NCBI GenBank assembly: GCA_022826925.1 | Contig: JAJDTX010000083.1 | Coordinates: 1-64,000 of the forward strand | Direction of reading: 5' to 3' | Origin: Bryobacterales bacterium | Lineage (GTDB): Bacteria > Acidobacteriota > Terriglobia > Bryobacterales > UBA6623 | Length of the DNA stretch: 64,000 bases | Shown: one piece after another, positions 12,878 through 41,824 of the stretch | How positions within the stretch are numbered: position 1 is the stretch's first letter | Layout: every line of letters begins with the position of its first letter | Notes under the pieces: model-generated | Told to the model about the DNA's origin: nothing | Database searches by the model: none | What the model saw: the letters and a program-made list of their open reading frames with translations, nothing else | Position numbers and translations under genes: made by a program

Positions 12878-13006
12878 TCCGGCACCCTGTGGGTTTGCCA
12901 AGTAACCTCTGTGGTATCGCATTGCCGCGCGGCCACGACGCCGAAGCGGAGCAGAGGTGAAGATGTTGCGGTCGCAATTCGCCAGGGTGGCAGGAGGCCC
13001 CGTTCC

Positions 13007-16501: not shown

Positions 16502-16619
16502 CCCGAGGCGCGCGAGCAGCTTGGATAGCTTGGGACGCGGCCGGAAATCCGCCGCGTCGCGCTTGCAAATGCAACGGTCGAAACATAGACTGGGAGCGGG
16601 CAGGAAATCCGCGCATCCG

Positions 16620-19463: not shown

Positions 19464-20906
19464 GTGACCAGAAACGGCAAGATCCAGTCGACTTCGAGGC
19501 GACAGCTCCTACGCCAAACGGGCTTGGGCTTCGCTGCACTCGGCTTGGATGTCTTGCTGGCCGAGCAAGCCGCGCCTCGCGGAGCGACCGCAGTCGAAAA
19601 CCCCATTGCGCCCAAGCAGCCGCACTTCGCTCCCAAGGCGAAGAACGTGATTTTCCTGTTCATGCACGGCGGGCCCTCGCACCTCGACACGTTCGACCCC
19701 AAGCCGCGCTTGAAGGCGGATGCGGGCAAGCCGATGCCGATCAAGAAGGAGGTGTCGTTCACCCCGCTGGACAAGCTCGGCGGGCTGATGCCCTCTCCCT
19801 TCGAGTTCAAGCAATACGGACAGTGCGGCACTCCGGTCAGCAGTCTTTTCCCCAACCTGGGGGCGTGTGTCGACGACCTCTGCGTGGTCCGCTCGATGGT
19901 CGGAGACGCCGTGGACCACGGCGGCGCAATGCTGCAGCTGCACACTGGCGCGTTCAACTTCACGCGGCCGAGCCTGGGGTCTTGGGTCCTGTATGGCCTT
20001 GGTTCCGAGAATCAGAACCTGCCGGGCTTTATCACCATCAAGCCGACTCTCTGGCACGGCGGAGGGAAGAACTGGAGTTCGGCTTTCTTGCCGTCCGCCT
20101 ACCAAGGCACGCCGATCGGCTATGCCCCGATGAAGGTGGATGACGTCAGGGAAAAGCCGATCGAGCACTTGACCAATGAGAACCTGACTTCGGACCAGCA
20201 GCGTTACGAGTTGGACATGCTGCAGAAGATCAACCGGCGGCACGCGGTCGACAAGGCACACGATCCCGAACTCGAAGCTCGCATGCAGTCGCTGGAATTG
20301 GCGTTTCGCATGCAGATGGAAGCTCCCGAGGCCCTCTCCACGAATGATGAGTCCAAGGCCACCGAGAAGCTCTACGGCATCGACGACCCCGCCACGAGCG
20401 ACTTCGGCTGGCAATGCCTGATGGCTCGGAGGCTTGTGGAGCGAGGCGTGCGGTTCGTCCAATGCACGCACAGCGGCCACGAGGAGAAGTGGGACCACCA
20501 TCGCCAAGTCGCCCGGCGCCACCACGCATCCGCGAAAGAGATCGACAAGCCGATCGCCGGCTTGATCCAAGATCTCAAGGCTCGCGGGCTGCTTGACGAC
20601 ACGCTCGTGATGTGGGGCGGAGAGTTCGGCCGCACTCCCTATGCGGAGAGTGACGGCCGCGACCACAATCCGTACGGCTACACGATGTGGCTGTCAGGCG
20701 GCGGCGTCAAAGGCGGGATGATTCACGGCGCCACAGATGAGTTCGGCTATCACGCTGTCGAGAACCGCATGCATCTCCATGATTTGCATGCGACGATTCT
20801 TCATCTGCTGGGCTTCGATCACGAACGGCTGACCTATCGCTTCGACGGTCGTGACTTCCGGTTAACGGACGTGCACGGGACCGTCGTGAGCGACATCTTG
20901 GCTTAG
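19464..20906 (+). CDS. DUF1501 exported protein (alkaline-phosphatase-like fold)
   Basis: The 480-residue product starts with a GTG preceded by GAGGAA at a 5-nt spacing. Its N-terminus has a twin-arginine-like STSRRQLLRQTG followed by a hydrophobic stretch, so export by Tat is likely. FLFMHGGPSHLDTFDPKP, WGGEFGRTPYAE and GGVKGGMIHGATDEFG are typical DUF1501 blocks. The family belongs to the alkaline phosphatase/sulfatase superfamily but lacks the sulfatase Cys, and its substrate is unknown. It is the fixed partner of DUF1553 proteins, and here it lies 9 nt after one and 12 nt before the next. Confidence 0.92.
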   Translation: MTRNGKIQSTSRRQLLRQTGLGFAALGLDVLLAEQAAPRGATAVENPIAPKQPHFAPKAKNVIFLFMHGGPSHLDTFDPKPRLKADAGKPMPIKKEVSFTPLDKLGGLMPSPFEFKQYGQCGTPVSSLFPNLGACVDDLCVVRSMVGDAVDHGGAMLQLHTGAFNFTRPSLGSWVLYGLGSENQNLPGFITIKPTLWHGGGKNWSSAFLPSAYQGTPIGYAPMKVDDVREKPIEHLTNENLTSDQQRYELDMLQKINRRHAVDKAHDPELEARMQSLELAFRMQMEAPEALSTNDESKATEKLYGIDDPATSDFGWQCLMARRLVERGVRFVQCTHSGHEEKWDHHRQVARRHHASAKEIDKPIAGLIQDLKARGLLDDTLVMWGGEFGRTPYAESDGRDHNPYGYTMWLSGGGVKGGMIHGATDEFGYHAVENRMHLHDLHATILHLLGFDHERLTYRFDGRDFRLTDVHGTVVSDILA

Positions 20907-20918
20907 GGGCGCTCGCCA

Positions 20919-23855
20919 GTGCAGAGATCCCAGCTCTTCTGGCCTGCTGTGTGTCGCTGCGTTTCTCTCTCGGCAGTGCTCGTGGCTTGCGTCCTTGGTG
21001 GCGGCCGCGCTGCCGCCGCCACCACGCCGCCCACCTTCGACGAAGACGTTCGCCCCGTTCTGGAGGCCAACTGCTTTTCCTGCCATGGCGGTGACGCGCC
21101 GCAGCAGGGTCTCGATCTGCGCACGGCCCAAGCCATTCTGAGGGGAGGAAGTTCTGGCCCCGCCATCGAAATCGGTTCCTCCGCAAGGAGCGTCTTGGTC
21201 GAACGGATCGTCGCTGGCACGATGCCTCCGGGCGACTCGAATCTGGCCAAGAGCGAAATCGCTCTCATCCGGCACTGGATTGACGACGGTGTCGCGCACG
21301 AAGCTGCCGAGTTGGGAGTGGAGCTTGTCACGGACCGCGACGTACTTCCGATCTTTCAGGCGCGCTGCGTTGTCTGCCATGGCAAGCGCGAGCAGCGCGG
21401 AGGCTTGGATCTGCGAACGCGGGAAACGCGATTGGCAGGCGGCGATTCGGGCCCGGCCTTGGTGCCCGGCAGTCCTGACACGAGCCTGATCATCCGAAGG
21501 ATCGAGGCTGGCGAGATGCCGCCTCCCGACATGCAGTACGACTACGCGGTGCGCAACACGACGGACGCGGAAGTCGCGAAGCTCAGACAATGGGTGGCCG
21601 CCGGAGCTCCGCCCGCCCCGAACGACAAGGGTGCTGCCGAGCCCACGCGGCAGATCGCCGAGGAGGATCGCAACCACTGGGCCTTCCTGCCGCCCGAACG
21701 GCCGGCAGTCCCGGAAGTCAGCAGCCAGGGGTTGGTGTCAAACCCCGTCGATGCTTTCCTGCTGGCAAGGCTTGAGGAGAACGGACTCTCGTATACCGAG
21801 GAGGCAGCGCCGCTGGCCCTATTGCGCCGAGCGTACCTCGACCTGACGGGAATGCCGCCATCGCCGAAAGAGGTGCAGCGTTATTTGGAAGACGATGGCG
21901 AGGACCGCTACCGGCTATTGATCGGGCGATTGCTGGAGGCACCGGAGTACGGCGAGCGCTGGGCCCGCCACTGGCTGGACGTCGCCGGCCATATCGACAC
22001 CGAGGGATTCGGCGAGTACGCGCCTCGCCGACAGAACGCCTGGCGCTACCGGGACTACGTGATTCGGGCATTCAACCGGGACAAGCCTTTCGACGAGTTT
22101 CTGACCGAGCAGATCGCCGGTGACGAGCTTGCACCGTGGAAGGATCAAGAGGTGACGCCCGAACTCATCGAGCGGCTAGCCGCGACAGGGTTCCTGCGCA
22201 CGGCCCCCGATCCCACTTGGGAAATCGAATTCGCCTTTCTCGACGAGCGCATGAATGTCATCGCCGACGAGGTGCACATTCTCGGGTCAGGAATTCTCGG
22301 GCTGACCGTGGGCTGTGCCCGTTGCCACGATCACAAGTTCGACCCGATTACCCACCGCGACTACTATTCATTGGGCGCGATCCTGCAGGCAGCCTACGAC
22401 CCGTACGACTGGGTCCAGCCCAAGAAGCGTGTGCTCAACATCGGATTGGCGAGCGAGAAAACGGATGTCGATGAGTTCAACGCGCCTCTGAAGGCCAAGA
22501 TCAAGCAACTCAAGGAATCGCTCGAAACGGAAGCGGCCCCCTACAAGGCACGCTTGCTGGAGGAACGGCTCGGCCGCTTGCCGGAAGGCGTCCGGGAGGA
22601 CCTCCGCAGACTCTCCGAGACGGCCGAAGACGAGCGGACCGAAGTCCAGCAGTACCTGGCCAAGAAGTTCAAGAAAACGCTGGAGACTTCCATCAACGAC
22701 GTCAAGGAGAGCTCCGAGTCATTCAAGTCGAAGGCCGAACCCATTCAAAAGCAGATCAAGGAAGCCGAGGCGCAACTAAGACCAGACCCGGGCCTTCACG
22801 CGCTGGTGGATATGGGCGGCGAACCGTCGACCAGCTATCTGCTGCTGCGGGGCGATGCGTTCACCCCGGGACAGCCGGTCGAGCCGGGAGTTCCCGCTTT
22901 CCTCGCGCCCCACATTGACCCCTACGAGGTTGTCGCTCCTTGGCCGGGGGCGGACACAAGCGGACGGCGCCTGGCGCTGGCGCGCTGGCTCACGCAACCC
23001 GATCACCCGCTCACGGCGAGGGTGATGGTCAACCGGATGTGGATGCGCCATTTCGGTCGCGGGATCGTCGCTTCGCCGGACAATTTCGGGCGCACCGGCG
23101 AGCCCCCGTCGCATCCCGAACTGCTTGACTGGCTCGCTACCGAGTTTGTGCGGAGCGGCTGGAGCGTGAAGCACATGCACCGCCTGATGATGACTTCCAC
23201 CGCGTATCGACAGGCTTCGCGCAAGGACGGCGAAGCACTGGCAGCCGATCCCGACAACGCCTTGCTGTCGCGGATGACGATGCGACGGATGGATGCGGAG
23301 CAGCTGTACGACTCCATCCTCGTGGCCACGAGCCGCCTTGACCCCGCCCGCTTCGGCCCCCCGGCGGACCTAGAGCTGAGCGACGATGGCGAGTATCGCG
23401 CCGCTGGCTCGACGCAGGGTTTTCGCCGCAGCATCTACACCCTGCAGCAGCCGCGAACTCCAATCTCGCTGCTTGAAGCATTCGACCTTCCCCAGTTGTC
23501 ACCGAATTGCATCGTCCGGAACCAGTCCAATGTCCCGACCCAGGCATTGCACCTGATGAACAGCGAATGGATGTGGGACTTGTCACGCTACATGGCTGGA
23601 AGAATCATTGATGCGGCCGGAAGCGACGCGGAGAAGCAGGTGAGAGAGGTCTTTCTGCGAGCCTTGTCGCGTCCGCCGTCGCACTTCGAGACCAGCGAGT
23701 CCTTGGCAGCCCTGGAAGATCTTCGCAGCCACTGGCCCGGGAGGCTGGCGAGCGACCGGCGCGAAGCGCCGATCCAGGCAACCTCCCGCTGGCTGGCATT
23801 GGCGAACCTCTGCCACGCCGTCCTGAATTCGGCAGGGTTCGCTTTCATTGATTGA
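20919..23855 (+). CDS. Exported DUF1549/DUF1553 protein with two cytochrome C-like domains
   Basis: The 978-residue paralogue of the gene at 16620 carries two PSCyt1 domains in series, with CFSCHG near residue 50 and CVVCHG near residue 150, then DUF1549 with [12 protein letters not shown] and a C-terminal DUF1553. A charged, coiled-coil-like stretch ([19 protein letters not shown]) lies in the middle. It starts with GTG and has a signal peptide ending near GGGRAAAA. The two haem sites suggest that it carries more than one electron. It follows DUF1501 by 12 nt and precedes the second DUF1501 by 9 nt. Confidence 0.9.
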
Positions 23856-23864: not shown

Positions 23865-25355
23865 ATGTCAATAGCAAGAACTCCACCCGAATCCAATCGC
23901 GAGAGCGCGCGCGCGGCGATGGGGCGCCGCGATTTCTTCTCGCGCGTCAGTGATGGCTTGCACGGCGCGGGGCTCGCCTACTTGCTCGGGGCCGACTTGT
24001 TCTCGCCAAGCCCGGCGCTGGCTGCCGCCGGAGCCTCGCCAGCGTTTGACCTCACCCCGAAGCCTCCGCACTTCGAGCCCAAGGCGAAGGCGGTGATCCA
24101 GCTCTTCATGCACGGGGGCCCAAGCCAGGTCGATCTATTCGACCCGAAGCCGGATCTGGCCAAGTACGCGGGGAAGACGCCAAGTCGGGACCTGACGGCC
24201 GTCGCAGTGAGCCCGCAGCAGAACGCGGGCATTCTGCCGTCGCCTTACCAGTTCGGAAGACATGGCGAGTCGGGCCTCGAGTTCTCGGAATTGCTGCCCC
24301 ACATCAGTTCGTGCGCGGACGACATCGCGTTGATCCGGTCGATGTTCACCGAGACCCAGAATCACGAAACGGCTCTCAACATGATTCATTCCGGCCGGCT
24401 GCTGGGAGACCGACCGACGGCCGGGGCGTGGGTCTCCTACGGGCTGGGCACGGAGAACCAGAACCTGCCGGCCTATGTCGTCTTGGACGACCCCAAGGGG
24501 TTGCCGATCGGGGGAATCGACAATTGGCAGGCTGCCTGGCTGCCGCCGAACTGCCAAGGAACGCGATTTCGCGCCCAAGGCTCTCCCGTCCTGAACCTAG
24601 AGCCGCGCCCTGAGTGGCCTGACGCCGTCCTTGAGATCGAGAGGCGCCTGTTGCGCCGGCTCGACCAGGCTCACGTCGAAAAACGCCCGCACGAGGCGGA
24701 CCTGGCGGCTCGCATCTCCAGCTACGAGCTGGCGGCCCGCATGCAGCTGGCGGCGACAGATGCCCTGAACTTGGAGCAGGAAGACGAAAAGACCAAGGAG
24801 ATGTACGGGCTCAACGATGCTCTCACCGAATCGTACGGCAAGCGCTGCCTGATGGCGCGCCGTCTGGTCGAGCGTGGCGTTCGCTTTGTGCAGCTCTACA
24901 TCGAGCAGCAGATCTGGGACACTCACACAAAGCTTGACGAGGGCCTGCGATACAGTTGCGGCAAGACGGACAGGCCCTCCGCGGCGCTGTTGAAGGATCT
25001 CAAGCAACGCGGCCTGCTTGAGGACACTCTGGTTATCTGGGGCGGGGAGTTCGGTCGCCTGCCGCTGGGCCAGGGCGATTCGAACAACAAGAGCAGCCTA
25101 GGCCGGGATCACGGCCCCAACGGCTTTACCCTCTGGATGGCGGGTGGCGGAGTGAAGGGCGGCACCGTTTACGGAGCTACCGACGAGCTAGGGAACCACG
25201 CCGTGGAAAACCCTGTCAGCGTGCATGACTTCCACGCCACAGTCCTTAGCCTCCTAGGCATGAACTTTCGTGACCTGGTCTACCGTCGCCACGGCTTGGA
25301 CGAACGCCTGACGGATCAATTCCCCGCACGGGTGATTGACGAGCTAGTCGCCTGA
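23865..25355 (+). CDS. DUF1501 exported protein, second copy
   Basis: The 496-residue product is the second DUF1501 of the operon. A twin-arginine-like AAMGRRDFFSRVSDG precedes a weakly hydrophobic segment. FMHGGPSQVDLFDPKPD, IWGGEFGRLPLGQG and GGGVKGGTVYGATDELG match the first copy, but overall divergence is large, so the duplication is old or the two pairs came in separately. It likely works on the same periplasmic side as its DUF1553 partner. The gene ends 47 nt from the convergent ADP-ribosylglycohydrolase gene, with a short GCGAG/CTCGC hairpin between them. Confidence 0.92.
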   Translation: MSIARTPPESNRESARAAMGRRDFFSRVSDGLHGAGLAYLLGADLFSPSPALAAAGASPAFDLTPKPPHFEPKAKAVIQLFMHGGPSQVDLFDPKPDLAKYAGKTPSRDLTAVAVSPQQNAGILPSPYQFGRHGESGLEFSELLPHISSCADDIALIRSMFTETQNHETALNMIHSGRLLGDRPTAGAWVSYGLGTENQNLPAYVVLDDPKGLPIGGIDNWQAAWLPPNCQGTRFRAQGSPVLNLEPRPEWPDAVLEIERRLLRRLDQAHVEKRPHEADLAARISSYELAARMQLAATDALNLEQEDEKTKEMYGLNDALTESYGKRCLMARRLVERGVRFVQLYIEQQIWDTHTKLDEGLRYSCGKTDRPSAALLKDLKQRGLLEDTLVIWGGEFGRLPLGQGDSNNKSSLGRDHGPNGFTLWMAGGGVKGGTVYGATDELGNHAVENPVSVHDFHATVLSLLGMNFRDLVYRRHGLDERLTDQFPARVIDELVA

Positions 25356-25402: not shown

Positions 25403-26674
25403 TTACAGATCGGAATTCACGACATAGACGGTCTCGCCGTCGCGCACTTCCATGCGCCCGCCGTTCTCGAGAATGGCGGTCTTGGCAACCGCGCCGATCC
25501 GCTCGACGATTTCGCTGATCGGGGTGCGCAACTTGATTTCATCGCGTGAGATATTGACGTACCGGTCGTTGAACGGCTTGTCCCACTTATCCCGCAGGGG
25601 CAGTTCCATGGTTAGCTTGACAGCTGCTTCGCCCATGCCGCTCAGCCCGTTGAGAACGCCGATCAGCCCTGCCGTGGTGGCCGCTTGGTTGTCACAGTCA
25701 TACCCGGCCGATGTCGCGATACCGACCGTCTTCATGAAGTCTCCCTCGCCATAGAGAACGGCCATCATTCCGGTCAGCCCGTTGGCCAGCGACGAGACCA
25801 CGCTCACCGGCGCTTCGTACGACCCCTTCTTGTAGGCATAGTACTTTTCGTGGATCTTGGCTCGCGTGTCGCGCCAGTCGTCGAACTCGGAGTGCCACTT
25901 GACCACATCGCGAATGCCCTCCGCGAACGGCCCCTCGTTGGGCACGGCCTTGATTCCGATATCGACCAGCTTGCGCACGTCCCTCTCGAAGAACGCCGCG
26001 CTGATCATCGCCCCGTAGGCAATCGTCGGGTGCGTGCCCCAATCGTCATTGGTAATGCGAGCGCCCCACAGCGCCCGCTCTGCCGCCTTCTGAGTCATCC
26101 CGGGATAGAAGGCGCTCCAGATCTCGTTGACCAGTTGCGGGTCGATTTGGAACCAGTGCTTGTTGTTCTCCTTGCGACCGGTGTCGGGCGCAACCAGCCC
26201 TTGGTCCATCAAGTTGCGCGCTTCTCGGTTCGCAACCCAGATGTAGTCGTTGATGTGCGTCATCCACATCTGGGTGATCTCGGGATACGTGATGTCTAGG
26301 CCGTACTTTTCGACCGCATGCAAGGTGACGAACTCGATGTCGGTGTCGTCGTCGCTGAACGCCCCGCCAAGCGTCTGGGCCATGAGCGGTATGAATCCCC
26401 GCCGGTCTCTCGAATTGATCTTCAGTTCCGGGCTGCCGTCGTAATCGGCGGTATACACCCGGTCGACCAATACGGGGATCGGCTCCTCGACATAGTTGTT
26501 CTCGAACGGAAAGCCGATGTAGTTGCCGAGCAGCTGCCCGATCCAGAACCCCGACATCTTGTCCATCAGCTCGTCGTGGCTGATGACCCGCTCCTTCGCC
26601 GTCGCGTCATCGACGAATACAGCCGAAGACAGCGCTAGGGCCGCGATCAGCCCCAAGTGACTCGCTCGTTTCAT
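25403..26674 (-). CDS. Exported ADP-ribosylglycohydrolase-family protein (copy 1)
   Basis: The 423-residue protein has a signal peptide (MKRASHLGLIAALALSSAVF) and a GAGGAA ribosome site 8 nt before the ATG. The all-helical ADP-ribosylglycohydrolase fold is seen in WIGQLLGNYIGFPFEN, the N-terminal metal site GAFSDDDTDIEF and the C-terminal metal site AGYDCDNQAATTAG. In known enzymes (DraG, ARH1, ARH3) these acidic residues hold two Mg ions that help cleave a ribosyl bond; those proteins are cytosolic, whereas this one is exported. Copy 4 at 35.3 kb is the closest relative here by motif. It is the last gene of a minus-strand run with copy 2 (72 nt upstream). Substrate unknown. Confidence 0.88.
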   Translation of the reverse strand: MKRASHLGLIAALALSSAVFVDDATAKERVISHDELMDKMSGFWIGQLLGNYIGFPFENNYVEEPIPVLVDRVYTADYDGSPELKINSRDRRGFIPLMAQTLGGAFSDDDTDIEFVTLHAVEKYGLDITYPEITQMWMTHINDYIWVANREARNLMDQGLVAPDTGRKENNKHWFQIDPQLVNEIWSAFYPGMTQKAAERALWGARITNDDWGTHPTIAYGAMISAAFFERDVRKLVDIGIKAVPNEGPFAEGIRDVVKWHSEFDDWRDTRAKIHEKYYAYKKGSYEAPVSVVSSLANGLTGMMAVLYGEGDFMKTVGIATSAGYDCDNQAATTAGLIGVLNGLSGMGEAAVKLTMELPLRDKWDKPFNDRYVNISRDEIKLRTPISEIVERIGAVAKTAILENGGRMEVRDGETVYVVNSDL

Positions 26675-26746
26675 GAAGATTTCCTCTCTTTGCCTCGCGC
26701 GTCCGGTCTGCGCCGCAGGTCGGACCCTTTCGATCCAGGACTTGGA

Positions 26747-28327
26747 CTAGCGAAAGACTACCAAGTTCTCCAACACAACGTCGCTCCCCTGCGACCCGCC
26801 GTATGGCTCACCTAGCACAACGACCCGAACGGTGTGCGAAGCGTTCTCCAAGCCGAAGGCATGCCACACGGAATCCCCATATTTCCGGTTGTCTTCGTCT
26901 GGATACACGTCAACTTGCTTGTGCAGCTCTCCGTCCAAGTAGACTTGCGCCGACCCGCCGGTTGGAAGATAGGGCCCCGTGACGATAGCTCCCGTGCCTT
27001 CAAAGGTGATCGTGGCTTCGGCACCGTTCTTCGAAGCGATCATGCCGCGCCAGTCCGTCCCGCGCCGGTCGGTGATGAGGTGCTCTTCCCAGGCACCCTG
27101 CCAGTTCCAACGAGCGTCTGAAGCGGGAATTCGCTCGACGGGCGAACCGTAATCATCCCAGATTTGCAGCTCCGGCGGCACGGCCTCCTGTCTGGGCACG
27201 ATCAAGCGGTCTCCCTCGACACGCCCGCCATGTCGCTCCGCCATTGCGATGGCACGCTTCTTGGTGCTTTCGACGATTCCCGGGAAGGTGAAATCCGTGT
27301 AGCTGAACTTCTTGTCCAAAATGGCCGGGATGCCGCTCTTCCATCGATCCGGGATCCCTCGGAATCCGGTCATGACGCCGAGGATTCCGCAAGCGTTGGA
27401 CGGGTTACAGTCCGAGTCTTGGCCGGCGCGGGTGGAAACCATGAGCGTCTTCTCAAAGTCCCTGTCGCCGTAAAGCAAGCCCAGCGCGATATAGGCACCG
27501 TTCAGCTTGGCGTCAATGTTGAAAGGCCGTAGCGCCCCGTTCGGGCACGGTTCCCGCTTGTCCCACTTTTGGCCAATCAACTCCCAGTTCTTGATCCAGT
27601 CGTCCGGGTGCTCGTCGTACCACGCGAGCACGTCGTTGATCAGCAGGGCGTAGGGGCTCTCGGGCGGCATGCACGCGACGCCGGCCTCGACAATCTTGCG
27701 CGGGTCGTCCTCGAAGAAGGCTGCCGAGTACATGCAGGAAACGAACATGCCGCCGTAAATCCCGTCACCGTAGTTCATGACTCTCCCGGCTCGGAGGCAC
27801 AGGTCGTTCGCAGCAACGGGCATGCCCGGGGTCATCAGTCCCACGAAATCCGCCTCGATCTGAAAGTCGATGTCGTTGGCATGGGCGTTGTGTTGCGGGG
27901 TCCCGGAAAGCTCGGCGGGAACTCCGCGCTTGAGGGCGCGACGGGCGCCCAGGTTTGCATGCCAGAGACGGTACTGGGCGTTCTTAAGCAGGTCCCCGAA
28001 GTCTTGCGTCGTGGCGTCGAGCCCCTTCTCGTCCAAGACTGTGGCGAAGGTCATTTCAACGTAGAGGTCGTCCTGGTCCAAGGCATTGGCCACCATGTCG
28101 GGGGTCCATTCGGGCATCTTGTCTTCCGGAACAATCTGCTGGTTGTAGACGAACTCCGTGGGATAGCCGTAGGCGACACCGACCATCTGGCCCGCCCAGC
28201 CGCCCTCGATCCGGTCTTGGAGATCCTCCAGCGAGATCGCGAGCTCGTCGGAAGGCGCTGGCGTCCCGCACTGGATCAGGACCAACGCCAACAGCACGGC
28301 AAAGGCCGCCACCAGACTGTTTCGCAT
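26747..28327 (-). CDS. ADP-ribosylglycohydrolase-family lipoprotein with C-terminal beta-sandwich (copy 2)
   Basis: The 526-residue product begins with a lipoprotein signal (LLALVLIQCGTPAPS). An AAGGAG ribosome site fixes the ATG at 28327 instead of 28354. The hydrolase domain spans about residues 30-380, with GWAGQMVGVAYGYPTEF, the metal site DQDDLYVEM and the second site GQDSDCNPSNACG. The last 120 residues are a beta-sandwich ending in VLENLVVFR, probably carbohydrate-binding. Copy 3 upstream is a close paralogue. The gene lies 39 nt after the sugar transporter gene, so release of a sugar outside the inner membrane and its uptake are probably linked. Confidence 0.88.
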   Translation of the reverse strand: MRNSLVAAFAVLLALVLIQCGTPAPSDELAISLEDLQDRIEGGWAGQMVGVAYGYPTEFVYNQQIVPEDKMPEWTPDMVANALDQDDLYVEMTFATVLDEKGLDATTQDFGDLLKNAQYRLWHANLGARRALKRGVPAELSGTPQHNAHANDIDFQIEADFVGLMTPGMPVAANDLCLRAGRVMNYGDGIYGGMFVSCMYSAAFFEDDPRKIVEAGVACMPPESPYALLINDVLAWYDEHPDDWIKNWELIGQKWDKREPCPNGALRPFNIDAKLNGAYIALGLLYGDRDFEKTLMVSTRAGQDSDCNPSNACGILGVMTGFRGIPDRWKSGIPAILDKKFSYTDFTFPGIVESTKKRAIAMAERHGGRVEGDRLIVPRQEAVPPELQIWDDYGSPVERIPASDARWNWQGAWEEHLITDRRGTDWRGMIASKNGAEATITFEGTGAIVTGPYLPTGGSAQVYLDGELHKQVDVYPDEDNRKYGDSVWHAFGLENASHTVRVVVLGEPYGGSQGSDVVLENLVVFR

Positions 28328-28366
28328 CGTTTCGCTCCTTGCAGGCCCCGTCACGGTCTCAGGTGC

Positions 28367-29362
28367 TCAGAGGGTTGCGACACCGATCAGTGTGAGGCCG
28401 CAAGTGTACCCAAGGAACATCAGCACGATGAAGGGCGTGGCACTCTTCGGCGCCGCTTTGAATTCTCTCCAGATAAAGACGCCCCAAATCGCCGCCACCA
28501 ATGTAGCACCCTGACCCAACGCGTAGGAGATCGCCGGTCCCGCCACGCCCGCAGCGATGACGTTCAACCCCAGGGCCACCATCCAGATCAGTCCTCCGAG
28601 GACTCCTAGGGAATGCAGCTTCGGGCCTCCCCGGAAGTATCTGGAGTAGGTTCTCCCGCCGGCCTTCATGAAAACCGTGTTCACGATGAAGTTGCTCAGC
28701 AAGAGGCCGATCCCGAAGTACAGCAAGGCGGTGTAGGGGGTAAGGTAGCCGGGCTGGATCGCATCCGTGCCGAACCCCGGCGAGACAGCCTGGACCAGCA
28801 TCGGGTAGAACGAACCCATCAAGCAACCGGCGATCACGGCGAACAGCAGGCCGCGCCCGAGTCGCCGACCTGCCATCGGAGGCAACTTGCTGTATGCGAG
28901 CGCCGACATGATCATCGCAACGACGATCAGCGCAACGCCGGCGAATATCAGCGTCGGGTCTCCCTTCGGCGCCTGCAGATAGCTGCGCAATGTACCGATG
29001 ACCAGCGCGAGCCCGACACCGACTGGGAACGCCAGCGACATCCCTGCGGCGTCGATAGCCACGACCAGGAGAATGTTCGAGAGGTTAAAGAGCGCACCGC
29101 TCAACAGGGCATCTGCGATCGGCCCTCCGGCCGCTTGTCCGAGATTGGCCATCGCGCCCATCCCGGACTCGCCAAAGCTGCCCAATGTCAGGGCGAATAC
29201 GATGCCCGTCAAGAACACGCCGATCGCGTAGTCCCAATAGTAGAGTTCGAAGGGCCAATCTTCCTTGCCGGCCAGCTTTTGCGTGTTGGCCCACGACCCC
29301 CAGCCCATCATGGTGATGATGCACAGAAAGATAGCCAGTCCTAGGCTTTCGACAACAAACAT
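28367..29362 (-). CDS. GRP-family sugar transporter (ten-helix permease)
   Basis: This 331-residue integral membrane protein has about ten hydrophobic helices and the GRP/RbsU-type opening GWGSWANTQKLAGKEDWPFE. LLVVAIDAAGMSLAFPVGVG and GTLRSYL fit this branch of the drug/metabolite transporter clan, whose members import glucose, ribose or rhamnose by proton symport. GGGAGG before the ATG is a good ribosome site. It sits inside the ADP-ribosylglycohydrolase run, 39 nt before copy 2 and right after the ribokinase relic, which makes ribose or another pentose the first guess for its substrate. Confidence 0.85.
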   Translation of the reverse strand: MFVVESLGLAIFLCIITMMGWGSWANTQKLAGKEDWPFELYYWDYAIGVFLTGIVFALTLGSFGESGMGAMANLGQAAGGPIADALLSGALFNLSNILLVVAIDAAGMSLAFPVGVGLALVIGTLRSYLQAPKGDPTLIFAGVALIVVAMIMSALAYSKLPPMAGRRLGRGLLFAVIAGCLMGSFYPMLVQAVSPGFGTDAIQPGYLTPYTALLYFGIGLLLSNFIVNTVFMKAGGRTYSRYFRGGPKLHSLGVLGGLIWMVALGLNVIAAGVAGPAISYALGQGATLVAAIWGVFIWREFKAAPKSATPFIVLMFLGYTCGLTLIGVATL

Positions 29363-29392
29363 GCGAACCTCCCTATGTTCCTTCCCGTCACT

Positions 29393-29671
29393 TCAAGCGG
29401 CAACCTCACTCGGGAACTGATTCACTTGCCGTCGTGACGGGATCGCAGCCCGTGCGCCCGCTCGCGTAACCGACAAGGCGGCTGCAGCATCCGCAAACTT
29501 GAGAACCACGACACGAGGGCCGCGGGCGAGGCTCTTCGCAGCCGCCGGGTCAACATCGGAATCGACAACCAGCGACTTGCTGGGCTCTCCCAGCAGCGTC
29601 AGGGTTTCCGTATCGTTCGGAGTCAGGAAGTCCACGTTGCAAAACAGGGCGGGCGCGGGTTCGAGCATCAT
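29393..29671 (-). pseudogene. Ribokinase/PfkB-type sugar kinase remnant
   Basis: The minus frame reads LEPAPALFCNVDFLTPNDTE, then an LLGEPSKS-like stretch and ARGPRVVVLKFADAA, matching the middle of ribokinases (NPAPA, LTPNE and VVVTLG blocks). The N-terminal sugar-binding part and the C-terminal GAGD catalytic motif are missing, so it cannot work. It lies between copy 3 of the ADP-ribosylglycohydrolases and the sugar transporter, which suggests that the intact operon once had glycohydrolase, kinase and permease together. Confidence 0.7.
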
Positions 29672-29714
29672 AGCGTTTGATCGAAATCCGCCGCTTGCTC
29701 GATTGGCGACCAGT

Positions 29715-31292
29715 CTATCGGAACACAACGAGATGGGAGAGCGCTATGTCGCTGCCTGTCGAACCCGGGTACGTTTCGCCCCGCACGACGACGCGCAGCG
29801 TGTGCTTGCCGTCCTCAAGCCCGTAGTCGTGCCAAACGGACTCCCAGCCCTTGGGCGCATTCTCGTCCGGATACACATCCACCGTTCGATTCAGTTCGCC
29901 GTCGAGGTAGATGTCCGCTGTGCCGCCGCTGGGAAGATAGTAGCCCGAGACGATCGCGCCCGTTCCCTCGAATTCGATCGTGGCCTCGGTTCCCGTGCTG
30001 CTGCCGGTCCTGACCGTGTGCTGGGGGCCCCAGTTCGAGATCGTGTCCTTCCAGTCCCCCTTCCAAGACCAGCGTGGATCGGTGACGGGAACGCGCTCGG
30101 CTGGGGATCCGTAGTCGTCCCAGGTCTCAAACTCCGCCGGAACTGCCTCTTGGGTCCTGACTAGCAGCCGATCACCTTCAACACGTCCGCCGTGCCGTTC
30201 CGCCATCGCGATGGCGCGCTTTTCGGTACTGTCCACGATGGTCCGGAACGAATAATTCGTATAGCTGAACTTCTCGTCGGCGATCTTTTCTATGCCGCTC
30301 TTGTACTCGTCCGGGATGCCCTCCAGTCCCGAGACGACTCCGAGGATGCCCAACGCGCTGGCGGGGTTGCAGTCCGAATCCTGCCCGCATCGAGTCGAGA
30401 TCGTCATCGTCTTGCCAAAATCTCCGTCTCCGTAGAGCATTCCCAAGGCGATGTAGGCCCCGTTGAGCTTGGCGTCGATATTGAACGAGTTTGCCGCGCC
30501 CTCCGGGCAGGGCTCGCGCTTGTTCCACTTCTCCTCGACCAGGTTCCAAGTCGTGATCCAGTCCTCAGGATGCTGCTCGGACCACTCCACGACGTCGCCG
30601 ATGAGTTGCGCATAGGGGCTCTGAGCGGGCAGGCAGGCCAGCCCGGCCTGCACCAGTTCTCGCGGATCGCTTTCGAAGAAGGCTGCGGCGTACATGCAGC
30701 TCACGAACATGCCTCCGTATATGCCGTCTCCGTGGTTCATGACTCGGCCGGCCCGGAAGCAAAGGTCGTTCGATGCCTGGGGCAGGCCGGGCGTCATCAG
30801 CCCCACAAAGTCGGCCTCGATCTGGAAATCGATGTCGTTGGCGTGCGCGTTGTATTTCGGCGTGCCGCTGAGTGTGGCAGGAACCCCGCGCTTGAGTGCC
30901 CGGCGGGCAGCCAAGTTGGCATGCCAGAGATTGTATTCGGCCTCCTTGAACATCGCCCCGAAGTCTTCGGTCGTCGCATCAAGGCCCTTGTCGTCAAGCA
31001 CTTGAGCGAAGGTCATGTCCACGTACAGGTCATCTTGGTCGATCGCGCTCGCGACAGTGTCCGGATCCCATTCCGGCAGTTTGTCGTCAGGAATGATCGA
31101 CTCTCGGTACCGGAACTCCGTCGGTTCGCCATAGCTGACGCCGATCATCTGACCCGCCCAGCCTCCAGCGATCTTGTCTCGCAGCGTTGACAGCAGAATC
31201 TGCTCGTACTCAGGCTCGGGCGCTGTAGAGCAAGTGCAGGCAGCGATGCAAATCGCAAGCGCGCAGACGGCAGTTGGAGAGAACGCTCTCAC
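29715..31292 (-). CDS. ADP-ribosylglycohydrolase-family lipoprotein with C-terminal beta-sandwich (copy 3)
   Basis: The 525-residue paralogue of copy 2 starts with GTG, an AGGTGA ribosome site 9 nt upstream and a lipoprotein signal (ALAICIAACTCSTAPE). It keeps GGWAGQMIGVSYGEPTEF, DQDDLYVDM and GQDSDCNPASALG, and ends in the same C-terminal sandwich (LSHLVVFR). Copies 2 and 3 match along their whole length, so they arose by duplication of the full gene. It is the first gene of the minus-strand run, behind a TATAAT at 31318-31323. Two-metal glycohydrolase activity in the periplasm is inferred; the substrate is unknown. Confidence 0.88.
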   Translation of the reverse strand: MRAFSPTAVCALAICIAACTCSTAPEPEYEQILLSTLRDKIAGGWAGQMIGVSYGEPTEFRYRESIIPDDKLPEWDPDTVASAIDQDDLYVDMTFAQVLDDKGLDATTEDFGAMFKEAEYNLWHANLAARRALKRGVPATLSGTPKYNAHANDIDFQIEADFVGLMTPGLPQASNDLCFRAGRVMNHGDGIYGGMFVSCMYAAAFFESDPRELVQAGLACLPAQSPYAQLIGDVVEWSEQHPEDWITTWNLVEEKWNKREPCPEGAANSFNIDAKLNGAYIALGMLYGDGDFGKTMTISTRCGQDSDCNPASALGILGVVSGLEGIPDEYKSGIEKIADEKFSYTNYSFRTIVDSTEKRAIAMAERHGGRVEGDRLLVRTQEAVPAEFETWDDYGSPAERVPVTDPRWSWKGDWKDTISNWGPQHTVRTGSSTGTEATIEFEGTGAIVSGYYLPSGGTADIYLDGELNRTVDVYPDENAPKGWESVWHDYGLEDGKHTLRVVVRGETYPGSTGSDIALSHLVVFR

Positions 31293-31317
31293 TGGATTTC
31301 ACCTAGGAGCCGGCCCG

Positions 31318-31323
31318 ATTATA
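31318..31323 (-). promoter_or_regulatory. -10 hexamer TATAAT for the ADP-ribosylglycohydrolase run
   Basis: A consensus TATAAT lies 25 nt before the GTG of copy 3, leaving a short leader with a ribosome site. No clear -35 is seen. Confidence 0.45.
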
Positions 31324-31430: not shown

Positions 31431-32459
31431 CTACGGGAGCGGACGGTTTCCAGAGCGCCGCAGCTCTTCTGCGATTCCCAGATGCTCCCGGGCACGGTCC
31501 GCCTGGCCCGTCTTGTAGTAGATGCGGCTCTGAAGGAAGTGAGCTTCATAGCTGTGGGGGCGGACGTCGATCGCACGCCGAACGGTGTCTTCGGCGAGTT
31601 CCATGAGACCTTGATCGATATAGATCTTGGCGAGGAGAATGTAGGATCCGAATTCGCGGGGGGCGAGCCAGACGGCCCGCTTCAATGCCTCCACCGACTC
31701 GGCCTGCTTGCCCAAGCCTAGGAGAGCCTCGCCCATCGAATGCCATCCATCTGCGTGCTGTGCGTTCCGCGCCAGGTCTTCTTGCAGCAGCGCCGAAGCC
31801 TTTGCGTAGTCTCCCCGGCGGAGTTCGATCACTCCGAGCGCGTAGTTCACGCCCGGCAGGTCGGCCTGTAGTTCGCGAGCCTTCAGAAGCAGCGCCTCGG
31901 CGTCATTCAGGCGGTTCTCCTGCAACAGCAGCTCGGCGGTTAGGGCGAAGGCCTGCGGACTCGCCGGATCGACCTGGAAGACCTTCGAGAATGGAACCCT
32001 GGCTTGGTTCTCTCGGCCTGACCTCACGTACGTCATGGCGAGCGTGTACAGGAGCTCCGAGTCGTGAGGCTTCCAACTGGATGCTCGCTCGAGCAACGGT
32101 TCCGCCTCCTGCCACCGACCCTCGAAGAAATAAGCCGCGCCGAGGATCTCCACGGTTTGTTTCCACGGGGCCGATTCCGGCTCTTCCCGCTCCAAGGCGG
32201 CCGCCAAGTGCTGGGCCGCCTCGCTAAAGTTTCGCAGCCGGTAGTGAGCAAGGCCCAGGAAGTGAAGCGCTTCCGGACGGTCCGGCAATCTCTCGGGCCA
32301 GTGCTGGAGCGTTTCGACTACTCCTTCGAAGTCGCCTTCGGAGAGGAGTGCATCGGCCTCGCGTAGATCGCTGGCGTACTGGGAGATTTCCGGAGACTGG
32401 CCCGCGGCTGAAACGATGATGCAAGCCGAGAGCGCCGCAAGCCTTGCGGTAGCCGTCAT
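31431..32459 (-). CDS. Exported TPR-repeat protein
   Basis: The 342-residue product has a signal peptide (ALSACIIVSAAGQ) and at least seven tetratricopeptide repeats, for example EALHFLGLAHYRLRNFSEAA, PGVNYALGVIELRRGDYAKA and SYEAHFLQSRIYYKTGQADR. Such repeats form a right-handed solenoid for protein contacts. It overlaps the upstream CRTAC1 gene by 4 nt (stop and start share 32456-32459), so both are made together and the TPR protein may bind or place the CRTAC1 protein. The same pairing occurs as a fusion in the 37.6-41.6 kb gene. No enzymatic motif is seen. Confidence 0.88.
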   Translation of the reverse strand: MTATARLAALSACIIVSAAGQSPEISQYASDLREADALLSEGDFEGVVETLQHWPERLPDRPEALHFLGLAHYRLRNFSEAAQHLAAALEREEPESAPWKQTVEILGAAYFFEGRWQEAEPLLERASSWKPHDSELLYTLAMTYVRSGRENQARVPFSKVFQVDPASPQAFALTAELLLQENRLNDAEALLLKARELQADLPGVNYALGVIELRRGDYAKASALLQEDLARNAQHADGWHSMGEALLGLGKQAESVEALKRAVWLAPREFGSYILLAKIYIDQGLMELAEDTVRRAIDVRPHSYEAHFLQSRIYYKTGQADRAREHLGIAEELRRSGNRPLP

Positions 32460-34282
32460 CGCTCTCGACCGCCCTTTCCTTGTTCGATGACGAGGATCTG
32501 ATCGACCGACGAGGGCGTGTAGCGCTCGTGCAGCCCGCCCGGCCAGATGACTTCAAGGTGTTCGATCTCTTCCGCCTGGCCCAGTCCGAAGTGAACCCGG
32601 AGATCGCTCTGGGACAAGTATCCGCGGCCGGAAGCCACCTCGCCCCGCTGTCGAAGCCCTCCCGCTTGACAGAACACCACGGAACCGATCGCGTCACGCG
32701 GAACTCCTAGGGCCGGGTTCCCGACGAGCTTGACGGCGATCCAATGCCCCGTCGCTCCTGCGCGGCGGTTGCGCAGCACGGTGGGACGGCCGTCGAGGTT
32801 GTTCAAGACGATGTCCAGGCTACCGTCGTTGAAGAGGTCCCCGACCGCGGCGCCGCGAGAGTTCTTGGGGCGTTGGAGCCCGGCGCCCAGGCCGCCGGAC
32901 ACATCGACGAACCTCCCGTTGCGGAGATTGCGGAAGAGAAGAGTCCTCTGCATGTAGGACGTGCCCCAGCTCGCAGGGTCGGCCTGGGGGAAGATGTGGC
33001 CGTTTGCAGCTAGGATGTCGAGCCATCCATCGTTGTCGTAGTCGAAGAATTCCGCCCCCCAGCCAAGGAACGGAAGAGTCGCTGCCAGCAGCCCGGACTG
33101 CAAGGTGACATCGCTGAAGTCTAGGTTGCCGTTGTTGCGATGCAGCGTGTAGTTGTCCCCCGCGAAAGTAGTGAAGAAGAAGTCGTTCCTGCCGTCATGG
33201 GTGTAGTCCCCAACGGCGATTCCCATGTAAGCCTGCTCGAGACCGTCGCCATTCGTGCCGAGGCCGCTAAGCATGCCGATCTCCTCGAAGGTACCGTCAC
33301 CTAAGTTGTGAAACAGGTAGTTGGGCATCGAGTCGTTGGCCACGACGATATCGAGACTTCCGTCATCGTCGGCATCGACCCAAGCAACCGCGAGCCCGTA
33401 GCTGTTCTTCGCCGCTCGCAATCCCGATTCCCGCGTTACGTCTCGGAACCGTCCGTCACCTACGTTGCGGAAAAGGAAGTCGGGCGCTGGATCCAGTCCC
33501 TTTGGCCCGCACGCGACCGAAACGCCGTAGTAGACGCAGGCGGCCTGGTCGGAATCGTAGGTCGCGCCGGTGGCAGGCATGCTCCCGGCGGATTCTCTTC
33601 TCCGGCCTGCCCGTGGGGCCGGCGGCGCGGGGGATCCCCCGGGCGGCGGAGGGTCGTCCCAATCGAAGTCGACGTAACCGGCCACGTATAGATCGAGCAG
33701 GCCGTCACCGTCGTAGTCGCCGAACGCACATCCGGTGGACCAAGCGTCGATTTGGACACCAGCTGTTGCCGCAGCGTCTGAAAAGGTCCCGTCCCCGGCG
33801 TTGACGTAGAGACGGCTCTTGCCGAAGTTGGTGACATACAGGTCCTCCCACCCGTCGTTATTGATGTCTCCGGCGCAGACACCGACGCCCCAGCGGTTGT
33901 TCGCCACTCCTGCCGGGGCCGTCACGTCCGTGAACGTTCCGTCTAGGTTGTTCCGGAACAACGCGGCGGAATCCGGCGGAACTCGTCCCCTCCGCGCATC
34001 GTCGGACAGGGCGTTCACCAAGTAGATGTCTAGCCAGCCGTCGTTGTTGTAGTCGAACAGCGCGACACCCGACCCGATCGTCTCGGGGAGGTATGGTTTC
34101 TGAGGGGTTCCTGCGCGGTGTTCGAACGAGCCCACGGCAGAGGCTCGAGTGACATCCTCGAACGAGACTCCTGTCGCGGCCTGCGGAGAAGGCATCGGGG
34201 CCGCTAGAGTCGAGACCTGCGGAAAACTCGGTGCAGTCACGGCTAGCCACAGCGCAATGAGAGCGTGGTGGCCCCTTAGCAT
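32456..34282 (-). CDS. CRTAC1-family exported protein (FG-GAP/VCBS repeats plus ASPIC/UnbV domain)
   Basis: The 608-residue protein has a signal peptide and a run of calcium-binding FG-GAP/VCBS repeats (LFDYNNDGWLDIYLVN, FGDYDGDGLLDLYVAG, VDADDDGSLDIVVAND, FFDYDNDGWLDILAAN), building an integrin-alpha-like propeller. The C-terminal ASPIC/UnbV domain (DLRVHFGLGQAEEIEHLEV) is found in secreted and surface proteins. A proline-rich insert sits near residue 215 (PPPPGGSPAPPAP). A TATACT hexamer ends 8 nt before the ATG. It is followed by the TPR gene with a 4-nt overlap. Its role is unknown; binding of a ligand or partner is more likely than catalysis. Confidence 0.9.
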   Translation of the reverse strand: MLRGHHALIALWLAVTAPSFPQVSTLAAPMPSPQAATGVSFEDVTRASAVGSFEHRAGTPQKPYLPETIGSGVALFDYNNDGWLDIYLVNALSDDARRGRVPPDSAALFRNNLDGTFTDVTAPAGVANNRWGVGVCAGDINNDGWEDLYVTNFGKSRLYVNAGDGTFSDAAATAGVQIDAWSTGCAFGDYDGDGLLDLYVAGYVDFDWDDPPPPGGSPAPPAPRAGRRRESAGSMPATGATYDSDQAACVYYGVSVACGPKGLDPAPDFLFRNVGDGRFRDVTRESGLRAAKNSYGLAVAWVDADDDGSLDIVVANDSMPNYLFHNLGDGTFEEIGMLSGLGTNGDGLEQAYMGIAVGDYTHDGRNDFFFTTFAGDNYTLHRNNGNLDFSDVTLQSGLLAATLPFLGWGAEFFDYDNDGWLDILAANGHIFPQADPASWGTSYMQRTLLFRNLRNGRFVDVSGGLGAGLQRPKNSRGAAVGDLFNDGSLDIVLNNLDGRPTVLRNRRAGATGHWIAVKLVGNPALGVPRDAIGSVVFCQAGGLRQRGEVASGRGYLSQSDLRVHFGLGQAEEIEHLEVIWPGGLHERYTPSSVDQILVIEQGKGGRER

Positions 34283-35188: not shown

Positions 35189-35273
35189 AATTCATTGACC
35201 CGCTGGCCGTCGATTCGGACCTATTGCACGCTCTCTCGAGAGATTGGACTGCCTCCGAGAAAGTCAATGAATT
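35189..35273. repeat. 11-bp inverted repeat around a 12-bp palindrome
   Basis: AATTCATTGAC at 35189 and GTCAATGAATT at 35263 are perfect inverted copies. Between them, TCTCTCGAGAGA at 35232-35243 is a perfect palindrome near the centre. The layout could be a regulator-binding region for the glycohydrolase gene or the ends of a tiny decayed element. Confidence 0.4.
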
Positions 35274-35325
35274 TAGGCTTTCCACGGAACCGGACGGAGC
35301 GTCACTCGCCGGGAGGAAGACTAAG

Positions 35326-37344
35326 TTGCATCGAAAATCAGTAACTGCTTCGGGGATTGTCGCGTTGTTGCTCGTATCGAGCATCTCCGCCCAGGACCCG
35401 GAGTTCAAGAGGATCGCGGTCGAGGATTACCGCGACAAGGTATACGGTTCCTGGCTGGCCCAATGCATCGGCAACATCTATGGACTGCCTCACGAGAACC
35501 GATACATCGACGAGCCGGGCCCCGATGAGTTTCCGTACGGCTACCGGCGGAATCTAGACGCGCTCAAGAGAACCAACGGGGTGTTCTCTGATGACGACAC
35601 GGATATCGAGTACATGTATCTCTTGGCGATGGAGCAGCACGGGCCCGAGCCGAGCCTGGCGCAACTCGCCGCGATGTGGAAATACCACGTGCGAAATCGC
35701 GTGTGGCTTGCAAATCGGGCTGCCGTCGCGGCGATGAACCACGGATTCACGCCCCCTTTTACCGGCGACAAGGAACTGAACCCGCACTGGTTTCAGATCG
35801 ACCCGCAACTCATCAATGAGATCTGGTCGGTCACGGCCCCTGGCATGGTGCGCTATGCCGCCGCGAAGTCTGGGTGGGCCGCGCTGATCATGGACGACGA
35901 TTGGGGGATCGAACCGACCGTCTACTACGGTGCCATGTATGCGGCTGCGTTTTTCGAGCCGGACGCCCACAAGCTGATCGACATCGGCGTCGCTGCGCTG
36001 CCCGCCGGAAGCCGTTTCGCGCGGACTGTCTCGGACATGAAGGCTCTATATCAAAAGCACCCCGAGGATTGGAAGGCTGCCCGTCGCGAAATGGCCGACA
36101 AGTACTATCACCGGGAGCCGCGCGAGTCGAAAACGATCTGGAACGCGAACCTGAATGCAGCGGCAGGAGTCCTTGCGCAGCTCTATGGGGACGGAGACTT
36201 TCAGGAGACCCTCGATCTGAGTTGTGCGATGGGTTTCGATGCCGACAATCAAGCGGCGACGCTGGCGGGTCTGCTGGGCGTGATACTCGGCCGACAGGGC
36301 CTGCCGAATGACCTGCTCTTTCCGATCCGAGAATTCAACTGGACCAAGCCATTCAACGATTTCTACAAGAACGTCAGTCGCTACGACATGCCGGATGCTG
36401 GGCTGGAGGACATGGCAGACCGGATGGCTGCGCAGGGAGAGAAGATTATTCTCCGACACGGCGGACGGAGGTTCAGCGAAGGCGGCAGGGAGTTCTATCT
36501 CATCAACACGGAATCGCCATTCGTTCCTCCTCTCGAATTTCCGAGCGGCCCGATACCGTACATGGAGGTTGGCCAGCAAGTCGATTACGCGTTGCCTGCA
36601 TTTGGCGGGGAGGCCCCGCTGAGTTGGACCGTTTTGCGCGGCGACCTTCCGGGGAATCTTCGGATTCTCGAAGGGACGGTCTCCGGCGTGCCCTCTGCCC
36701 CCGGGGTCTTCCCGATCGCATTGCAGTTAACGGCGGGCAACGACCAACGGATATCGAAGGCCCTCAAGCTGGTGGTCCGCGGCCCGAATCTCGCCCGGTC
36801 CGCGAGAAGCGTCCTGAGCAGTGTCAGCAAGACGGATACGGCTCGTCGAGATGAGATGTGGCTAACCGTCCCACATTCTCTGTATGCCGATCAGGTCGAA
36901 GTCATCCGCGACGGAAATCGCCTTGGCGATGGTTCGACGTTTTACAGCATTGAAGACCATGGGAACCCGAAGCTTGACTTCTTCGGGTTCGAGTGGAGCC
37001 AGCCTCAACGCGTGGGCCTGATGGGGTACCACACGGGCGCTGTCGAGGAGAGTGGCGGCTGGTTCACATCCTTGAACGTCGAGTATCGCGACAGCGACGG
37101 AAACTGGAAACCAGTTGACGGACTCTTGATCAGCCCTCCGTTGGCCCCGGGCCCCCTGCCGTTCAACAAACCCCATTTTGTCGAGTACCTGTTGGCCTTT
37201 CGTCCCGTGACGACGATGGCGATTCGCATCATCGGAGACGCCGGAGGAGCCGACCACTGGCGAAGTGGCAGGACAAACTTCACGTCGATCAGCGAGTTGA
37301 GCGTGCATGGCCCGTTGCCGCGATACGAGTTGCTCAACCGCTAG
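35326..37344 (+). CDS. Exported ADP-ribosylglycohydrolase-family protein with Ig-like and discoidin-like C-terminus (copy 4)
   Basis: The 672-residue product starts at a TTG with GGAGGA 8 nt upstream; this yields the signal peptide ASGIVALLLVSSISAQD. The ATG-like start at 35224 has no such site. Residues of about 30-400 are the glycohydrolase domain (SWLAQCIGNIYGLPHENRY, metal sites GVFSDDDTDIEY and GFDADNQAATLAG). A putative Ig/cadherin-like segment follows (GDLPGNLRILEGTVSGVPSA), then an F5/8-type beta-sandwich (FFGFEWSQPQRVGLMGYH), probably for glycan binding. By motif it pairs with copy 1, not with copies 2 and 3. It stands alone on the plus strand. Confidence 0.88.
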   Translation: MHRKSVTASGIVALLLVSSISAQDPEFKRIAVEDYRDKVYGSWLAQCIGNIYGLPHENRYIDEPGPDEFPYGYRRNLDALKRTNGVFSDDDTDIEYMYLLAMEQHGPEPSLAQLAAMWKYHVRNRVWLANRAAVAAMNHGFTPPFTGDKELNPHWFQIDPQLINEIWSVTAPGMVRYAAAKSGWAALIMDDDWGIEPTVYYGAMYAAAFFEPDAHKLIDIGVAALPAGSRFARTVSDMKALYQKHPEDWKAARREMADKYYHREPRESKTIWNANLNAAAGVLAQLYGDGDFQETLDLSCAMGFDADNQAATLAGLLGVILGRQGLPNDLLFPIREFNWTKPFNDFYKNVSRYDMPDAGLEDMADRMAAQGEKIILRHGGRRFSEGGREFYLINTESPFVPPLEFPSGPIPYMEVGQQVDYALPAFGGEAPLSWTVLRGDLPGNLRILEGTVSGVPSAPGVFPIALQLTAGNDQRISKALKLVVRGPNLARSARSVLSSVSKTDTARRDEMWLTVPHSLYADQVEVIRDGNRLGDGSTFYSIEDHGNPKLDFFGFEWSQPQRVGLMGYHTGAVEESGGWFTSLNVEYRDSDGNWKPVDGLLISPPLAPGPLPFNKPHFVEYLLAFRPVTTMAIRIIGDAGGADHWRSGRTNFTSISELSVHGPLPRYELLNR

Positions 37345-39775: not shown

Positions 39776-39796
39776 GACCTGCCGCCAAAAGAAACT

Positions 39797-41732: not shown

Positions 41733-41746
41733 AGTACTTGAGTACT
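41733..41746. repeat. Palindrome AGTACT-TG-AGTACT upstream of the second receptor
   Basis: Two self-complementary AGTACT hexamers are 2 nt apart, and CGTTAACG, another 8-bp palindrome, lies at 41712-41719. They sit in the 246-nt divergent region between the split CRTAC1 gene and the receptor gene and may bind a dimeric regulator. Confidence 0.35.
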
Positions 41747-41824
41747 TGGCTGCTGGGGTGGGTAATCCCGAGGCGGACCCCGGCCGAGCGCCCGCAGGCG
41801 AACTGTTGGGGCATCCGAGTTTCT

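Follow-up and report, generated by a model that had tools for sequence, protein, structure and literature searches.

Ribose utilisation in Bacteroides thetaiotaomicron has been described for the rus locus (BT2803-09), which includes a ribokinase, a nucleoside hydrolase and a DMT permease (PMC10434189, PMC12548429, PMC12596196). In the available portions of these accounts the operon reads ribokinase, TonB receptor, SusD, DUF4969 protein, nucleoside hydrolase and DMT permease, with no ADP-ribosylglycohydrolase (ADPRH) named (PMC10434189), and the role suggested for RusT is the uptake of free ribose (PMC12596196). An ADPRH-permease-ribokinase trio has also been annotated in staphylococcal chromosomal elements (S. 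epidermidis SERP2216-2218; PMC3637587, PMC3321955), where the available excerpts list it without a function. Here we analyse a minus-strand cluster at positions 25403-31292 of a 64,000-nucleotide stretch from a Bryobacterales bacterium (contig JAJDTX010000083.1, positions 1 to 64,000; hereafter the window), in which three ADPRH-fold genes accompany a permease gene and a ribokinase remnant. Judging from the sequence, we lean towards the view that this cluster serves ribose scavenging, in which exported ADPRH-fold enzymes would act as riboside hydrolases and a permease and ribokinase would handle the freed ribose. A preliminary description of this DNA knew of no described system of this kind, a statement that the rus locus and the staphylococcal trio show to be too strong. 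Glowacki et al. reportedly described a diversity of RUS loci in 2020, and ADPRH genes may be present in some of these. The terms "ADP-ribosylglycohydrolase" and "polysaccharide utilization" together gave no match in the literature searched, mostly outside subscription papers.

The preliminary description had placed three ADPRH-family genes, a permease and a broken kinase in one minus-strand run, with a fourth family copy near 35.3 kb, and all of these were found as follows.

29715-31292 (-): predicted exported ADPRH-fold lipoprotein of 525 aa, with an ADPRH domain and a C-terminal beta-sandwich, first in the run (PF03747, 113.2 bits)
29393-29728 (-): ribokinase remnant of 111 codons (TIGR02152, 39.7 bits; alignment to intact relatives)
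28367-29362 (-): DMT/GRP-type permease of 331 aa, of the RhaT/ureide-permease superfamily (PF07168 and PF06800, both over cut-off)
26747-28354 (-): second predicted exported ADPRH-fold protein, 535 aa, with the same domain plan as the first (PF03747, 117.2 bits)
25403-26674 (-): third predicted exported ADPRH-fold protein, 423 aa, of a DDT / DxDN subtype (PF03747, 99.7 bits; site residues and tree)
35224-37344 (+): fourth predicted exported ADPRH-fold protein, a 706 aa frame whose C-terminal region is long, of the same subtype as the third (PF03747, 92.1 bits)

The run is transcribed in the order of the first five lines and is tightly packed, with 12 bp between the second ADPRH-fold gene and the permease gene and 72 bp between the third and second ADPRH-fold genes. 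All four ADPRH-fold proteins of the window pass the curated PF03747 (ADP_ribosyl_GH) cut-off of 26.2 bits, and nine PF03747 matches were found in the source genome, a 5.97 Mb draft of 196 contigs in which the window lies on contig 86.

The window cluster resembles rus, as far as the available portions of its description show, in having a ribokinase gene type, hydrolase genes and a DMT-type permease, which in rus is proposed to be for free ribose; the window permease was matched to this type by family. It differs in several respects. The hydrolases of the cluster are of the ADPRH fold, and no nucleoside hydrolase occurs among the proteins of the run, the rest of the genome not having been searched for one. 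Its ribokinase is a remnant, intact in relatives and on another contig of the same genome (C55). No SusC or SusD gene stands beside the cluster, whose scanned flanks encode DUF1501, TPR and FG-GAP proteins, and the TonB/Oar-type receptors of the window lie away from it at 12806-16450 and 41738-44521. As an intact kinase, a nucleoside hydrolase and an adjoining SusCD pair are all missing, we do not file the cluster as a rus locus; by analogy, however, it most likely works like rus, as a variant of the known ribose-scavenging systems. The staphylococcal trio has the same three gene types, adjoining as in the window, but in the available excerpts its permease is annotated as a cytosine/purine type and its ADPRH gene, at 987 bp, is too short for an added beta-sandwich domain.

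The DUF4969 protein of rus was considered as a possible ADPRH. Among 393 genomes a single one gave a DUF4969 match over cut-off (L290, 156-1655 (+), 499 aa), and this protein matched none of our home-made ADPRH, nucleoside hydrolase and ribokinase models. We therefore make no claim that rus of B. thetaiotaomicron holds an ADPRH-fold enzyme, and its DUF4969 protein may be another type of protein.

In the mechanism that we propose for the window cluster, the exported ADPRH-fold hydrolases would act outside the cytoplasm and split a riboside at its glycosidic bond, presumably using a two-metal site of four Asp residues and one Glu. The freed ribose would enter through the RhaT/ureide-type permease, and a ribokinase would convert it to ribose-5-phosphate, a step that the intact C55 kinase may perform in the source genome. 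The strongest hints for ribose release are the ribokinases and, in some loci, the exported-looking nucleoside hydrolases that accompany related permeases.

In a scan of species genomes we analysed the best 80 of at least 585 confirmed relatives of the permease. Within 4 kb and on the same strand, 57 of the 80 loci had a ribokinase, 26 an ADPRH-fold gene and 16 a nucleoside hydrolase, the latter two counts coming from models partly built from proteins of these loci; ribokinase and ADPRH genes occurred together in 17, and 13 had none of the three types. Comparison of near with far densities in the same loci, counted on either strand and over loci that are not independent, gave an excess near the permease of 11.6x for ribokinase (p 4e-11), 2.9x for ADPRH (p 0.003) and 6.1x for nucleoside hydrolase (p 0.0004). 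With models built without locus proteins, the counts within 3.5 kb were 57, 25 and 3 of 80, respectively, and 38, 15 and 2 among the 46 loci with full flanks. Nine of nine nucleoside-hydrolase candidates scanned pass Pfam, and the remaining candidates include some overlapping frames. In 18 of the 80 loci the permease gene had an ADPRH gene on its own strand no more than 150 bp away, and ADPRH genes lay near the permease in at least five phyla, going by record titles. Contiguous sets containing a Pfam-passing nucleoside hydrolase were found in Chryseolinea serpens (ribokinase-ADPRH-permease-nucleoside hydrolase) and Lacihabitans (ribokinase-nucleoside hydrolase-ADPRH-permease). Spirosoma spitsbergense DSM 19989 is, like Chryseolinea serpens DSM 24574, a culturable organism whose genes form a contiguous set.

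The permease itself scores 47.7 bits against Ureide_permease (PF07168) and 34.4 bits against Sugar_transport (PF06800); the assignment to the GRP sugar transporters made in the preliminary description holds to this extent, with RhaT far below its cut-off. It is 88-89% identical to permeases of two Bryobacterales metagenome genomes (L149, L150), and from its sequence and company it is a probable ribose importer. Of 396 genomes from the phylum, 40 have a homologue, and 12 of 20 places examined had a ribokinase-like gene nearby; a permease of the same superfamily is present in 128 of 150 relatives at a looser threshold of E 1e-20. The permease was also found, at 27 places, in 23 of 198 genomes from the order of a Prolixibacteraceae genome, which we read as Bacteroidales; 20 of the 27 places were examined, and ribokinase, ADPRH and nucleoside hydrolase genes stood within 8 kb on the same strand in 10, 9 and 5 of them.

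Ribose was proposed as the sugar in the preliminary description, and it remains the likely one because the linked kinases pass the ribokinase model: all four scanned (L010, L051, L057, L068) exceed TIGR02152 with 317 to 329 bits, and none of the four passes the stricter PRK11142 model. The window kinase, called broken from the outset, retains just the middle and C-terminal pieces of a ribokinase; by alignment to intact relatives, some 164 residues are missing from its start, as is a stretch of ~53 that includes DTTAAGD. An intact ribokinase occupies the same place in relatives, so the remnant, as read from sequence, is a decayed operon gene. Contig C55 encodes an intact 329-aa ribokinase together with a second permease, 89% identical to that of the window, and this pair is preceded by a frame resembling a lipoprotein C-terminus. 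We infer that the C55 kinase substitutes for the decayed one.

The preliminary description had suggested a search of homologous loci for an intact glycohydrolase-kinase-permease set. One relative (L051) has the complete window order, namely lipoprotein, intact ribokinase, permease, second lipoprotein and third ADPRH gene, and four others (L050, L057, L058, L068) have the lipoprotein, an intact ribokinase and the permease together. Ribokinase, permease and the third copy adjoin in L089 and L091; L048 and L049 have the lipoprotein and third copy at the matching place, without permease or kinase; L092 and L093 have an intact third copy beside mere fragments of the second lipoprotein and permease; and the second-lipoprotein match of genome G006 has an internal stop. 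By these sequences, parts of the locus are acquired and lost within the genus. Eight of its 11 genomes have both the lipoprotein and the permease and the other 3 have neither, a count uncorrected for descent. A 48% identical ADPRH protein from another class (L135) also occurs with ribokinase and permease. Two further loci are alike in having a permease 65% identical to ours, a ribokinase and exported-looking hydrolases, but the hydrolases are of PF01156, a different family from PF03747: in L129 the permease, on the opposite strand, is surrounded by genes for a LacI regulator, a ribokinase, a TonB-type receptor and a pair of PF01156 nucleoside hydrolases, and L130 matches it in its ribokinase and two Pfam-confirmed nucleoside hydrolases. 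The preliminary description would have been refuted had the three gene types shown no link in related species; they are linked in relatives, although many relatives are without the link.

Export of the ADPRH-fold proteins was assessed by inspecting N-termini by eye, without a predictor. The lipobox of the first, 29715-31292, is a good one (IAAC); in 26747-28354 the letters are LIQC, in which the residue preceding Cys is unusual, making lipidation less sure; and 25403-26674 and 35224-37344 have ordinary Sec-like signals. The window copies would accordingly be exported, as had been expected, and of the two proposed to be lipoproteins the first is the better candidate. Most linked full-length proteins likewise have signal-peptide- or lipobox-like N-termini by eye.

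An AlphaFold2 model of 29715-31292 (21 sequences; pLDDT 89.1, pTM 0.89) comprises a helical domain and strands from about residue 397. The top Foldseek match by E-value was DraG (1.8e-6), ARH3 matched with a TM-score of 0.72 by target length, and the nearest solved structures were DraG, ARH3, MJ1187 and the immunity protein of an ADP-ribosyltransferase toxin; the model and Foldseek together show the ADP-ribosylhydrolase fold for this one protein of the window. A single-sequence PDB search with it gave one match up to E 1, a lipase (E 0.054). The beta-sandwich would account for the shorter Foldseek matches (CE2-type esterases, CBM6E, BT_2959); those of CE2/CBM6 type were placed on it by size and fold type, the aligned ranges not being printed. 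In the model this added domain resembles carbohydrate-binding domains. Its presence in two copies, as described beforehand, agrees with the model of 29715-31292 and, by alignment at 65% identity, with 26747-28354; no added domain was found in 25403-26674. A model of 35224-37344 from a 3-row alignment was set aside at pLDDT 48.2. This fourth copy is 56% identical to a Parapedobacter koreensis protein whose locus (L208) also has a ribokinase and permease, and from its sequence its function is likely related to that of the other copies.

In ADP_ribosyl_GH enzymes, two Asp pairs serve two metals. Residues E59, D87, D88, D305, D307 and C308 are invariant across 21 homologues of 29715-31292, and a profile alignment matches D305 and D307 to the GGDTDT motif of ARH3 and D87/D88 to the DD of MJ1187. 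We take D87/D88 and D305/D307 to be the metal ligands and E59 to be the counterpart of the catalytic Glu41 of ARH3. The four Asp and one Glu are aligned in all four window copies, which upholds the earlier statement that both acidic metal sites are kept, except that the Thr flanking the metal Asp in ARH3 and DraG is replaced by Gln, Leu and Cys in the two lipoprotein-type copies. The window enzymes have in common with DraG, ARH3 and MJ1187 a helical fold and acidic metal residues, but they look exported, and two have the added beta-sandwich and no flanking Thr.

In a tree of 44 proteins, with some long branches and unsure deep joins, the lipoprotein type of Acidobacteriota, Gemmatimonadota, KSB1, Neomarinimicrobiota and Bacteroidota forms one group, while 25403-26674 and 35224-37344 fall in a second with a DDT and DxDN site. 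Within the lipoprotein group, which is present in at least five phyla, the acidic site letters are constant (E, DD[L/I/V/M]Y, D-E-D, GxDxDCNP), one member having Ser in place of Cys308. It is conceivable, if at present rather doubtful, that this clade is an undescribed family of extracellular enzymes that need metal and hydrolyse ribosides, perhaps as alpha-ribofuranosidases, with a ribose compound other than ordinary nucleosides as substrate, and that it is the first of its fold in nutrient scavenging. We know of no earlier members of the ADPRH fold that serve nutrient scavenging instead of the reversal of ADP-ribosylation.

Several results weigh against a role in ribose scavenging. The linked ribokinase of the window is broken, its 39.7 bits comparing with a TIGR02152 equivalog cut-off of 299.65. 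The permease scores far below the RhaT cut-off, and ribose is its putative substrate. Our first, narrower models showed no excess of nucleoside hydrolases around the permease, with 3 close to it and 2 further away (p 0.69). Among the 19 Acidobacteriota loci of the scan, an ADPRH gene lay within 4 kb in 1 and a ribokinase in 9; when 10 neighbour proteins of Acidobacteriota permeases with neither gene were scanned, no family was common between loci. Within 4.5 kb and on the same strand, a permease accompanies 7 and a ribokinase 5 of 53 lipoprotein-type loci from relatives in the order, the window itself left out, and all of these cases are among the 43 loci with full 4.5-kb flanks. A lipoprotein-type gene and a close permease are found together in 13 of 150 genomes, where chance would give 10.5 (p 0.19; hand-copied lists at E < 1e-180 and 1e-110). 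Finally, 8 of the 53 loci instead adjoin histidine-degradation genes. In these (L070, L071, L072, L073, L082, L278, L279, L284; five genera) the lipoprotein gene lies next to hutI and ftcD and shares their strand, and hutU is directly downstream in 7; the hut families were confirmed by profile on L070 and L082 proteins. An imidazole riboside is one idea for the substrate of these copies.

A different substrate is the alternative that survives best. The exported enzymes could act on furanosides of another kind, for instance by removing pentofuranosyl groups from acylated glycans, with the permease carrying the matching pentose and the ribokinase linkage confined to some loci. All five Bacteroidota loci of one type (L217, from Draconibacterium orientale, and L265, L267, L268 and L270) combine, in a single run, the permease with three exported ADPRH-fold genes and a pair of Pfam-confirmed PF00756 esterases, and no ribokinase was found within the stretches examined. 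L265 also carries a SusD gene, and its two esterases match a xylanase/feruloyl esterase model weakly, with scores under the cut-off. These loci suggest an acylated furanoside substrate, and the CE2- and CBM6-like beta-sandwich and the sulfatases and TonB-type receptors of the window point in the same direction. With a ribokinase in 57 of the 80 permease loci, four of four scanned kinases passing TIGR02152, and nucleoside hydrolases in other loci, we nevertheless consider this alternative rather unlikely for the window. For ribose scavenging, candidate substrates would be nucleosides, other N- or O-ribosides and, because of the five esterase-bearing loci, acylated glycans.

It is also conceivable that the exported enzymes strip ADP-ribose from periplasmic or extracellular targets, such as proteins or NAD breakdown products, in self-protection or NAD salvage. 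The identity of the closest solved structures, among them a toxin immunity protein, is in keeping with such a role, but no toxin or NAD gene recurred among the scanned neighbours, where ribokinase and permease do recur, and the Thr beside the metal Asp of ARH3 and DraG is replaced in the lipoprotein clade; we judge it quite improbable. It seems to us very unlikely that in this lineage the linkage is a mere coincidence and the lipoprotein enzyme does something else, such as acting on an imidazole riboside in connection with histidine/urocanate degradation: the hut-linked loci, the many other lipoprotein copies that stand alone and the lack of genome-level co-occurrence favour it, but lipoprotein and permease agree in all 11 genomes of the genus (uncorrected for descent) and ADPRH genes lie close to permeases in at least five phyla.

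The cluster lies in a glycan-degrading neighbourhood, judged from two sulfatases (24-1988 (+) and 6634-8139 (-)) and the two TonB/Oar-type outer membrane receptors (12806-16450 (+) and 41738-44521 (+)). By Pfam, 16521-19454 (+) encodes a PSD1/PSCyt2 protein, 23865-25355 (+) a DUF1501 protein and 31431-34282 (-) TPR and FG-GAP/ASPIC-UnbV genes. Further PSD1/PSCyt2- and DUF1501-type partners (19464-20906 and 20919-23855, both (+)) and further TPR and FG-GAP/ASPIC-UnbV genes (37637-41578 (-)) were recognised by eye, the latter from translations.

If our proposal is correct, several bacterial phyla would have turned a fold known for undoing ADP-ribosylation into an exported enzyme for nutrient acquisition. 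This would provide a function for proteins that are currently named only by the ADP-ribosylglycohydrolase family, and it would indicate that a pool of ribosides in the environment has been overlooked.

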